This document shows, one piece after another, positions 12,146 through 14,950 of a stretch of 64,000 nucleotides of DNA. The notes beneath the pieces are model-generated. The model made no database searches. It saw nothing but the letters and a program-made list of their open reading frames with translations, and had not been told where the DNA came from. This stretch comes from Acidovorax defluvii (GTDB lineage: Bacteria; Pseudomonadota; Gammaproteobacteria; Burkholderiales; Burkholderiaceae_C). The stretch covers positions 124,001 to 188,000 of the forward strand of contig QLTU01000005.1 in the NCBI GenBank assembly GCA_003268905.1, read 5' to 3'. The position numbers and the translations under genes were made by a program. Position 1 is the first letter of the stretch. The number at the start of each line of letters is the position of its first letter.

Positions 12146-13219
12146 ATGAAAATCGCAGTTCTGCCGGGTGACGGCATTGGCACCGAAATCGTCTCCGAAG
12201 CCGTCAAGGTTTTGGAAGCGCTGGAGCTCCCGTTCGAGATGGAATCCGCCCTCGTAGGCGGCGCCGCCTACGAGGCCCATGGCCACCCGCTGCCCGAATC
12301 CACCCTGAAGCTCGCCATGGATGCCGACGCCGTGCTGTTCGGCGCCGTGGGCGACTGGAAATACGACAAGCTCGACCGGCCCCTGCGCCCCGAGCAAGCC
12401 ATCCTGGGCCTGCGCAAGAACCTGGGCCTGTTCGCCAACTTCCGCCCCGCCATCTGCTATGAGCAACTGGTGGGCGCATCCAGCCTCAAGCCCGAGCTGA
12501 TTGCGGGCCTCGATATCCTCATCATCCGTGAGCTCACGGGCGACATCTATTTCGGCCAGCCCCGCGGCCGCCGCACGGCCACCGACGGCCACTTCCCCGG
12601 CGCCGAGGAAGCGTTTGACACGATGCGCTACAGCCGTCCCGAGATCGAGCGCATCGCCCATGTCGCCTTCCAGGCCGCCCGCAAGCGGAGCAAGAAAGTC
12701 ACCAGCGTGGACAAGGCCAACGTGCTCGAAACCTTCCAGTTCTGGAAGGATGTGATGACCGAAGTGGGTCAGCAGTACCCCGATGTGGAACTGCAGCACA
12801 TGTATGTGGACAACGCCGCCATGCAGCTGGTGAAGGCGCCCAAGGCGTTTGACGTGGTGGTCACCGGCAACATGTTCGGCGACATCCTCTCCGACGAAGC
12901 CTCCATGCTCACCGGCTCGATCGGCATGCTGCCCTCGGCCAGCCTGAACAGCAAAGGCCAGGGCCTGTACGAACCCAGCCACGGCAGCGCCCCCGACATC
13001 GCGGGCAAGGGCGTGGCCAACCCGCTGGCCACCATCCTCTCGGCTGCCATGATGCTGCGCTTCAGCCTGAACCAGGAAGCCGCCGCCCAGCGCATCGAAG
13101 CCGCCGTGCAAAAGGTGCTGGCGCAAGGGTTGCGCACGCCCGACATCTACAGCGAAGGCACCACCAAGGTGGGCACCGCGCAGATGGGCGATGCGGTCGT
13201 CCAAGCATTGAAAGGATAA
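12146..13219 (+). CDS. leuB: 3-Isopropylmalate dehydrogenase
   Basis: NAD-dependent oxidative decarboxylation giving the direct precursor of leucine. The 357 residues start [34 protein letters not shown] near 128 and [18 protein letters not shown] near 275 are the catalytic and cofactor-binding regions. It follows leuD after a palindromic repeat and is immediately followed by a hypothetical gene whose ATG touches the leuB stop. Confidence 0.98.
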
Positions 13220-13588
13220 ATGATGCACGCGCCCTACGGAAGCAACCCCAGATTTATCTCTCTTCTGCTGTTAGTCGCAAGCCTGCAAGGCGTAGCAGCG
13301 TATGGACAGTCCTCAGAGCAGTTGGACAAGCTTTTAGAACTGAAAAACTCGTTGTGTGGAGGTTTTGCCAAGGAGGCTGTAATAGTGGCCGAAGGTGCCA
13401 GTAAAGGTCTCTCATATGACGAGGCAGTCAGACAACCAGGGGTTATGTCTTGGATGCTACAAGACGCGAAACCCGTATTCCAAGCTGCGTATCACGGTCT
13501 TTCTGGCCTGCCTCCAGCGGACATCCGAGCGCAAAGCTACTTGCTTTGCAGCAAAAATGCCGAAAAAGAGATAAAACGACTCCGCTAA
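13220..13588 (+). CDS. Hypothetical exported protein
   Basis: The 122-residue product is not recognised. The N-terminus has a hydrophobic stretch (SLLLLVASLQGVAAYG) that looks like a cleavable signal peptide ending near residue 28. Two Cys in the mature part (LCGG near 46, LLCSK near 110) could form a disulfide in the periplasm. The start codon directly follows the leuB stop, and AAAGGA within the leuB end can serve as ribosome site. Base composition is clearly more A+T-rich than leuB or asd, suggesting recent acquisition. The reading frame is intact. Confidence 0.6.
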   Translation: MMHAPYGSNPRFISLLLLVASLQGVAAYGQSSEQLDKLLELKNSLCGGFAKEAVIVAEGASKGLSYDEAVRQPGVMSWMLQDAKPVFQAAYHGLSGLPPADIRAQSYLLCSKNAEKEIKRLR

Positions 13589-13601
13589 AGGCACCTGGCC
13601 T

Positions 13602-13607
13602 TATAAT
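13602..13607 (+). promoter_or_regulatory. Candidate -10 element for asd
   Basis: TATAAT, exact, 9 bases before a short ORF and about 213 bases before asd. No good -35 lies 16-18 bases upstream. Transcription would begin near 13614-13616, producing a roughly 205-base leader. Confidence 0.5.
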
Positions 13608-13615
13608 TCATCCCC

Positions 13616-13717
13616 ATGTTTGCCGCCCGCCCGTTCGCCCTGAACACCGCTTCTGCCGCCCTGGCAGGCGTGGCTGTGCGCGCAATCACCACCAAAACCA
13701 CGACCATTAAGGACTGA
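13616..13717 (+). CDS. Candidate leader peptide of asd (Thr/Ile/Lys-rich)
   Basis: A 33-codon ORF that ends AITTKTTTIKD. After the Ala the last ten residues are five Thr, two Ile, two Lys and one Asp, all members of the aspartate family whose synthesis needs Asd. This resembles the E. coli thr leader, where such codons let the ribosome sense charged tRNA. No Shine-Dalgarno is seen before the ATG, and the -10 element suggests a leaderless start. In-frame GTG codons at 13670 and 13676 are alternatives. Translation is not proven. Confidence 0.45.
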   Translation: MFAARPFALNTASAALAGVAVRAITTKTTTIKD

Positions 13718-13783
13718 CCCAGCTCCGGTATCGTCGTGCGCCCTCCCTGGCCCAGACGAGCCGGGGCAGAAGTCAGTCCCGGT
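13711..13783 (+). promoter_or_regulatory. Structured asd leader RNA
   Basis: GGACTGAC (13711-13718, covering the leader-peptide stop) pairs with GTCAGTCC (13772-13779). Inside it CTCCGG (13723-13728) pairs with CCGGGG (13761-13766) and TCGTC (13731-13735) with GACGA (13755-13759). An alternative, GCCGGG (13760-13765) with CCCGGT (13778-13783), excludes the long stem. The switchable pairs next to Thr codons suggest attenuation, but the T-run after the alternative stem is weak (TGTTTCTT, starting 7 bases on), so the output could instead be translational. Confidence 0.5.
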
Positions 13784-13819
13784 CGGGCACTGTTTCTTAC
13801 ACTGAAAAGGGGCGTTGAA

Positions 13820-14950
13820 ATGAGCAAGTTGGTAGGGTTGGTCGGCTGGCGCGGCATGGTCGGCTCGGTCCTGATAGACCGCATGGAACAAGAGAAGGAC
13901 TTCGATCTGATCGAGCCCATGTTCTTCTCCACCTCGAACGCAGGCGGCAAGGCCCCTGCCCAGGCCAAGAACGAAACGGCCCTGCAGGACGCGTTCAACA
14001 TCGAGGCCTTGAAGCGCTGCGAGATCATCATCACCGCCCAGGGCGGCGACTACACCAACGAGGTGTACCCCAAGCTGCGCGCTGCGGGCTGGAACGGCCA
14101 CTGGATCGACGCGGCTTCCTCCCTGCGCATGGAAAAGAACGCCGTCATCGTGCTCGACCCGGTGAACATGCCCGTCATCAAGAACGCGCTCGCCAACGGC
14201 GGCAAGGACTGGATCGGCGGCAACTGCACCGTGAGCTGCATGCTGATGGGTGTGGGCGCGCTGTACAAGGCGGGCCTCGTGGAGTGGATGAGCACCCAGA
14301 CCTACCAGGCCGCTTCGGGCGGCGGTGCCCAGCACATGCGCGAGTTGCTCACCCAGTACGGCACGCTGAACGCCGAAGTGCGTTCGCTGCTCGACGATCC
14401 CAAGAGCGCCATCCTGGAAATCGACCGCAAGGTCATCGCCAAGCAGCGCAGCCTGTCAGCCGCTGAAACTGCCAACTTCGGCGTACCGCTGGGCGGCTCG
14501 CTGATCCCCTGGATCGACAAGGACCTGGGCAACGGCGTGTCCAAGGAAGAGTGGAAGGGCATGGCCGAGACCAACAAGATTCTGGGCATGGGTGAAGGCT
14601 TTGACTCTGCCGCCATACCGGTCGATGGCTTCTGCGTGCGCGTGGGCGCCATGCGCTGCCACAGCCAGGCCCTGACCTTCAAGCTCAAGAAGGACGTGCC
14701 CGTGGCCGACATCGAGGCCATGATCGCTGCCGACAACCAGTGGGTGAAAGTGGTGCCCAACACGCGCGAGGCCACCATCAAGGACCTGACCCCCGTCGCC
14801 GTGACCGGCACCATGACCATTCCCGTGGGCCGCATCCGCAAGCTGGCCATGGGCCCTGAGTACGTGGGTGCCTTCACCATCGGCGACCAGCTGCTGTGGG
14901 GCGCCGCTGAACCCCTGCGCCGCATGCTGCGGATTCTGCTGGACGCCTGA
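13820..14950 (+). CDS. asd: Aspartate-semialdehyde dehydrogenase
   Basis: Makes aspartate semialdehyde, the branch point to lysine/diaminopimelate, threonine, isoleucine and methionine. The start [18 protein letters not shown] at 13820 follows AAGGGG; the longer frame runs into the leader. The dinucleotide site (GWRGMVGS, 9-16) and the catalytic Cys in [12 protein letters not shown] near 136 are intact. At 376 residues it is the longer proteobacterial form. A strong terminator follows. Confidence 0.97.

Follow-up and report, generated by a model that had tools for sequence, protein, structure and literature searches.

The threonine operon of Escherichia coli has a leader that encodes a Thr- and Ile-rich peptide before its stop codon, and the position of the ribosome on this leader selects between hairpins and controls threonine synthesis; we take the thrLABC attenuator to be the Thr operon leader of Rfam (Thr_leader, RF00506). 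In the translational attenuation of erm, a drug-stalled ribosome on the leader open reading frame (ORF) frees the Shine-Dalgarno (SD) sequence of the next gene. Upstream of actinobacterial leuA, the LEU element has a leader ORF with a leucine codon run, and those codons themselves pair with the SD (PMC1262725). The attenuator trpL of Sinorhizobium meliloti is leaderless, with an RNA that begins at the ATG and no SD, and acts by transcription attenuation in response to tryptophan (PMC7298713).

Here, we analyzed a 64,000-nucleotide stretch of Acidovorax defluvii DNA (contig QLTU01000005.1; hereafter, the window), in which asd, the gene for aspartate-semialdehyde dehydrogenase (Asd), is likely preceded by a ribosome-mediated attenuator that reads threonine supply, together with that of isoleucine and lysine, and acts mainly by sequestration of the asd SD. 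Like the E. coli thr attenuator, this element has Thr and Ile codons before a stop and alternative hairpins that would be selected by ribosome position; unlike it, the element serves asd and not thrABC, adds Lys codons, has a leader that is apparently leaderless or is borne by LeuB, and shows no clear intrinsic terminator. As proposed, the mechanism resembles that of erm in that a stalled leader ribosome would free the downstream SD, and differs in that stalling would occur at amino-acid codons, as opposed to being induced by a drug. With the LEU element it shares a codon run in a leader ORF and a pairing that involves the SD of a biosynthesis gene, but it uses a separate anti-SD in the loop of a hairpin (P2) and not the codons themselves (PMC1262725). 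It shares with S. meliloti trpL the RNA start at the ATG, predicted in our case, and the lack of an SD, whereas tryptophan, transcription attenuation and an alphaproteobacterial host are features of trpL (PMC7298713). Rfam models had no match at the gathering score in the window and none at E up to 10 in positions 13560-13860, and the element differs from the Rfam Thr operon leader in its position upstream of asd, not thrA(BC). A search of the open-access literature by title and start of abstract found no description of a leader or attenuator of betaproteobacterial asd.

The putative asd leader in the window

The window carries leuC, leuD and leuB, a 122-residue frame, the leader and asd, all on the plus strand, and the four closest named Asd proteins (95-97%) came from Acidovorax and Simplicispira. 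The features discussed below are, in window positions:

12146..13219, plus strand: leuB, 3-isopropylmalate dehydrogenase (TIGR00169, E 5e-149)
13602..13607, plus strand: -10 promoter hexamer TATAAT, ending 8 nt 5' of the leader ATG (probable leaderless start); no clear -35 box
13616..13717, plus strand: leader ORF of 33 codons, MFAARPFALNTASAALAGVAVRAITTKTTTIKD and stop, with ATG at 13616 and TGA at 13715-13717
13685..13714, plus strand: putative regulatory codon run, the last ten codons of the leader (5 Thr, 2 Ile, 2 Lys, 1 Asp)
13711..13725, plus strand: place of P1, in relatives a GGGCU..AGCUC hairpin round the stop; not clearly formed in the window, where the last codon is GAC
13722..13767, plus strand: P2, the predicted 'stall' hairpin (anti-sequestor), GCUCCGGU.UCGUC paired with GACGAGCCGGGGC, with the anti-SD inside its loop
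13738..13744, plus strand: anti-SD segment GCGCCCU, complementary to the asd SD
13745..13766, plus strand: P3, alternative hairpin CCCUGGC..GCCGGGG that takes the 3' arm of P2 in predicted folds
13768..13797, plus strand: third hairpin, then a weak T run; a junction helix, or a remnant or weak terminator
13804..13815, plus strand: asd SD, GAAAAGGGGCGU, of which 13809-13815 pairs with 13738-13744 as P4 in predicted folds
13820..14950, plus strand: asd, aspartate-semialdehyde dehydrogenase, the putative regulated gene (TIGR01745, E 3.7e-180; PF02774/PF01118)

A sequence-only reading of this DNA had noted the TATAAT and, after it, a 33-codon ORF ending in five Thr, two Ile, two Lys and one Asp, and both positions and composition were confirmed (C-terminus of the ORF at 13616-13717, ITTKTTTIKD). 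Among the 1,431 open stretches of at least 20 codons in all six frames of the window, the leader alone had at least eight Thr, Ile or Lys in its last ten residues, and no such stretch was present among 34,557 in 20 windows simulated with a first-order Markov model.

The 122-residue frame between leuB and the leader (13220-13588) had a GC content of about 0.50, versus 0.59-0.69 around it, and no match in Pfam or NCBIfam. Its start presumably resembles a signal peptide, and the frame is probably an insertion.

Distribution among relatives

Of the 150 genomes of the family, 147 had an Asd match, and the DNA upstream of asd was taken for 130 of these. The other 17 comprised 13 genomes that later served as a held-out set and four in which Asd was cut (G041, G043, G104 and G107). 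We searched for leaders with at least five Thr, Ile or Lys, including at least one Thr, among the 12 residues that precede a stop located 60-200 nt 5' of the Asd match; 108 of the 130 genomes had one. A covariance model (R1) was built from 98 of the 107 sequences that we retained as carriers, the remaining one (L114) having reached the peptide count but being attributed to chance because it had no match to R1. Upstream of asd, R1 matched all 107 carriers, 98 of them its own training rows, and three of the 23 non-carriers (L007, L096 and L108), while the scan of whole genomes recovered 121 matches in 120 of the 150. In all 13 held-out genomes, which had a usable Asd start and were found by R1, the match ended 43-103 nt 5' of the Asd match and a Thr/Ile/Lys run preceded the stop there, confirming that codon run and RNA occur together. 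The Thr-rich C-terminus whose conservation the earlier reading had named as support, counted here as a Thr/Ile/Lys run, was present in 107 genomes of the 130 and in each of the 13 held out.

The carriers with names include Acidovorax, Limnohabitans, Hydrogenophaga, Rhodoferax, Simplicispira, Roseateles and Methylibium. Among 80 named loci the run was present in 78 and absent from L158, with 40 nt of upstream DNA, and L204. A degenerate KTTTIKG-stop pattern occurred in 23 of the 150 genomes, versus none for the reversed control; the window leader, with Asp as its last residue, falls outside this pattern.

Outside the family, R1 had one match among 200 genomes sampled from the order (threshold 0.01) and one among 143 sampled from the class (threshold 0.001), in scans with filters that lose weak matches and with a listing of only some of the genomes that had none. 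The first (L223) lay inside a frame that we take to be PAPS-reductase-like and the second (L224) beside one that we take to be alaS-like; neither site was leader-like, and both were attributed to chance. Because these were the only two, the element looks confined to the family of the window. Weaker R1 matches in the window and its own genome were also taken as chance, as was one (L339, on contig C220 of genome G074) with no leader stop at the expected place.

Several loci depart from the common arrangement. In L096 (genome G035), the run and the RNA element lie about 600-640 nt upstream of asd, with another gene, presumably an acetyltransferase from its sequence, in between, such that the element may now lie at the head of a two-gene unit. 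P2 persists in L007 and L108, neither of which has a Thr/Ile/Lys run; in the former (genome G125), LeuB ends at TAG, and the element is possibly decaying or changed. Genome G131 has the KTTTIKG-stop pattern twice (contigs C80 and C146), once at a contig edge, possibly through duplication in the assembly. Finally, 12 of the 130 rows (L119 and L121-L131, with their Asd proteins in L312 and L314-L324) formed a divergent Asd clade with 69-72% identity to the window Asd, and 11 of these 12 share this type of leader and stem, as though the leader had stayed and the asd behind it had been exchanged.

A separate leader or the tail of LeuB

The carriers fell into two architectures. In 47 of the 107, as in the window, the run ends a separate ORF (hereafter, solo); in the other 60, out of the 130 relatives with upstream DNA, the leader is the in-frame C-terminal tail of LeuB. 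With named loci added and identical copies removed, these sets grew to 112 solo and 69 LeuB-tail loci, which are not independent observations because many near relatives are included. LeuB of the tail class extended on average 13.4 residues beyond the MGDAV motif, with at least two Thr in 69 of 69, partly by definition. Where LeuB was readable at solo loci, its tail averaged 5.2 residues, with at least two Thr in none of 79, and at loci without the element it averaged 7.4 residues, with at least two Thr in two of 20.

Residue order was handled differently by the two classes. Over their last 11 codons the 112 solo leaders were 41% Thr, 17% Ile and 17% Lys, and positions -7 to -1 were nearly fixed (K 87, T 108, T 108, T 103, I 105, K 99 and G 111), whereas the LeuB tails kept the composition with a shuffled order, e.g., ITKTITKS, ITTTTKTIKS, ITKKTTKG and ITTITTGS. 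Named Hydrogenophaga cover both architectures, H. pseudoflava being solo and Hydrogenophaga sp. 2FB having the LeuB tail. On the Asd tree, whose resolution is poor (14 starred branches among 127 inner ones), well-supported branches forced six changes of the LeuB-tail label and five of the solo label, and plain parsimony gave 19 changes between the two. We consider it fairly probable that the last ten or so codons of leuB are the Thr/Ile/Lys sensor for asd in about half of the carriers, and that tail and leaderless leader have been interchanged several times with the RNA switch staying in place.

An apparently leaderless start

An in-frame ATG was present 15-45 codons 5' of the stop in 110 of the 112 solo loci, and in 106 of these 110 a hexamer of the form TA..T, matching TATAAT in at least five of six positions, ended 6-9 nt 5' of that ATG; no such hexamer stood before any of the 953 remaining ATGs of this DNA. 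No good -35 box was found beside this hexamer, with only 2-3 of six matches in 97 of the 106. The usual spacing from a -10 box would put the transcript start at or next to the leader ATG. With 8 nt from the end of the box to the ATG, the leader mRNA of the window is probably leaderless, as are those of the other solo loci. The missing SD, which the earlier reading had taken as a sign that the ORF might be untranslated, is indeed absent, but would be explained by this start.

The leader was exactly 33 codons long in 76 of the 97 solo leaders in which an ATG with the -10 box lay 29-36 codons before the stop. Amino-acid selection on the leader was not visible by pN/pS: the value of 0.77 for codons 2-22 indicates that such selection is weak there, and that for the last 11 codons was 1.42, with synonymous sites that hardly vary, as would follow from constraint on the RNA or on the codons as such.

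RNA structure and covariation

The stem-loop that had been drawn at 13711-13779 was recovered in the minimum free energy structure of 13700-13819 (-54.1 kcal/mol; z -3.4, an energy that none of 200 shuffles reached), and its inner part, P2 (13722-13767), is kept in relatives. Its outer block, GGACTGAC:GTCAGTCC, was, at full length, absent from the other 27 rows of alignment A1 (28 of the 47 solo rows), most of which have GGGCTG there. The alternative stem proposed at 13760-13783 did not hold up: its arms are present, but the folds predicted for the window did not contain it, and it was not seen to be kept in A1.

For P1, the best helix between the two segments in any register reached 4 bp or more in 104 of the 107 carriers. 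Arms from the same sequence paired better than swapped arms, a result reached by 0 of 300 permutations overall and in the LeuB-tail class and by 68 of 300 in the solo class. Three core pairs held in 85.7% of alignment cells, with no two-sided change. As RNA, the final leader codon forms part of P1. L091, whose stop is shifted by one codon, still has GGGCT..AGCTC, and the unusual last codons of L112 and L334 have matching P1 partners, those of L110 and L116 being without a match. The window's own P1 is weak.

P2 was paired in 92.4% of cells across 98 sequences (alignment A3, 98 of the 107 carriers), versus 25-48% when slid. Thirteen cells had two-sided changes, more than in any of 500 shuffles (mean 4.0), but these fell in only three of the ten pairs, a number reached by 150 of 500 shuffles, and P2 had fewer pair types than the shuffles, 498 of 500 of which were as high. 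When P1 and P2a were added, P2a was paired in only 57% of cells as aligned, and the covariation score was reached by 51 of 500 shuffles. The covarying stems looked for in relatives amount to a conserved stem with some compensatory changes, the covariation being thin because the stem is so conserved. In the window, the P2 region was more stable than shuffles (z -2.7, 1 of 200 as low), and the region of the stop state (13730-13825) was not unusually stable (z -1.3, 16 of 200 as low).

The P2 loop carries GCGCCC or UCGCCC, complementary to the asd SD (GGGCG, GGCGC or GGGCGA). Anti-SD and SD of the same locus paired better than swapped ones, with 0 of 300 permutations as good in each of the complete, solo and LeuB-tail sets. 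The margin was modest (mean score 14.3 versus 13.3 when swapped, all rows), the helices have only 2-4 bp in some members, and the segment scanned was set too early in at least five rows that were kept (L011, L054, L062, L070 and L116). We further classed the anti-SD type in 102 of the 107 rows (all but L030, L058, L069, L073 and L110). UCGCC goes with GGCGA across P2 (the P2a type) in 38 of 39 rows, compared with 10 of the 63 other rows, and GGYGA stands at the SD in 18 of the 39 compared with 9 of the 63 (p 0.001, uncorrected for ancestry). A tree-based test of the anti-SD and SD found three independent pairs on well-supported branches, too few to separate from ancestry. Five LeuB-tail loci (L034, L038, L049, L057 and L086) have GGACCCC in the P2 loop and GGGGTCC before the asd SD, a possible additional pairing that would compete with P3.

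Predicted folds by ribosome position

We folded the RNA downstream of the ribosome at 30 C, with 13 nt from the A site covered and pseudoknots left out. In transcripts cut after P2 (46 of the 47 solo and 60 LeuB-tail rows), the P2 probability depended on where the ribosome stood. With the ribosome at -15, it was 0.93 in the solo class (above 0.5 in 46 of 46) and 0.91 in the LeuB-tail class (60 of 60), and at -9, nine nt short of the stop, it was 0.93 (46 of 46) and 0.92 (60 of 60). With the ribosome at the stop, these values were 0.32 (13 of 46) and 0.19 (11 of 60), and P3 rose to 0.68 and 0.94, respectively. The window alternates, in these predictions, between P2 (-31.7 kcal/mol, cut transcript) and P3 with P4 (13738-13744 with 13809-13815).

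In full solo leaders, P4 rose in 41 of 47 and fell in none as the ribosome was moved from -15 to the stop (from -9, up in 37 and down in one), and accessibility of the SD fell in 31 and rose in four of the 47. In full LeuB-tail leaders, P2 was weaker at equilibrium (0.31 at -15); between stall and stop, P4 rose in 24 and fell in eight of 60, SD accessibility was hardly altered (up in 17, down in 14), and access to the start region rose in 33 and fell in 12. The folds thus predict that P2 and P3 are mutually exclusive and chosen by ribosome position in both architectures. Stalling had been expected to switch the structure, and the predicted folds do depend on ribosome position, although the partner of the stem is P3 (13745-13766) and not the 13760-13783 stem.

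Proposed mode of control

Computation established the codon run, the two architectures, the promoter spacing of a leaderless leader, the conserved P2, and a P2/P3 switch in the predicted folds. From these we infer that the leader is translated, in which direction asd responds, and that SD sequestration is the output. The sensor would consist of the ten or so codons before the stop, mostly Thr, Ile and Lys, in a leaderless ORF, as in the window, or in the tail of LeuB. With ample charged tRNA, the ribosome would reach the stop and cover the 5' arm of P2, such that the 3' arm would fold locally as P3; the anti-SD released in this way (GCGCCC or UCGCCC) would pair with the asd SD as P4, giving low asd translation. 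A ribosome stalled on the Thr/Ile/Lys codons would allow P2 to form and hold the anti-SD in its loop, leaving the asd SD free, and Asd would be made. Translational control is favored because no terminator was called in the window and the third hairpin does not respond as expected, and the earlier suggestion that the output might be translational agrees with our rating of SD sequestration as the likeliest output, over a terminator. Taken together, sequence comparisons support the reading of an amino-acid-responsive asd leader.

The chief rival concerns the output: the same codon sensor and P2/P3 switch would end the transcript when the ribosome is at the stop, through the third hairpin and T run or a Rho-dependent site, which we regard as unlikely. 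A hairpin with a T-rich tract was found in 33 of the 47 solo sequences, compared with 9-18 in five block shuffles, and in 17 of the 60 LeuB-tail sequences, compared with 4-10; some relatives have T runs of 5-7 after an AACAGT..ACTGTT hairpin, and GGACTGAC of the window could pair with the 5' side of the third hairpin. However, no terminator was called in the 64-kb window, 43 of the 60 LeuB-tail sequences had no terminator-like site by the same measure, and the third hairpin is compatible with both P2 and P3; under a loose definition of that hairpin, its probability exceeded 0.5 in nine of 27 sequences at the stop versus 16 of 27 at -9. Outputs perhaps differ between lineages.

A sensor that only counts codons would not need the nearly fixed order of the last seven solo residues, an order that gives scope for a contribution of the nascent chain, and arrest could be imagined in which K-T-T-T-I-K-G in the exit tunnel stalls the ribosome on a small molecule (threonine or aspartyl-phosphate), in place of codons that sense uncharged tRNA. 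This is very unlikely as the explanation, given that the LeuB tails shuffle the order with constant composition and that the last codon also takes part in P1 as RNA. Least credible, at barely above negligible odds, is a functional small protein (and a likewise functional LeuB tail) beside an RNA stem that is an unrelated stability element, for although the leader is often exactly 33 codons long (76 of 97), pN/pS is 0.77 in codons 2-22, there is no Pfam family, and the run alternates between LeuB and a separate ORF beside the same RNA.

Implications

Asd stands at the branch point toward Lys (and a cell wall precursor), Thr, Met and Ile, and the attenuator that we propose, a threonine sensor on asd across a betaproteobacterial family, would be a regulatory circuit that the open-access papers found by our search do not appear to describe. 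It would also account for the Thr/Ile/Lys tail of LeuB, which annotation from sequence alone would assign to the enzyme. If the tail is the sensor, each ribosome finishing LeuB would report threonine supply to asd, and the interchange of tail and leader would show how an upstream gene can give rise to an attenuator or take one up.
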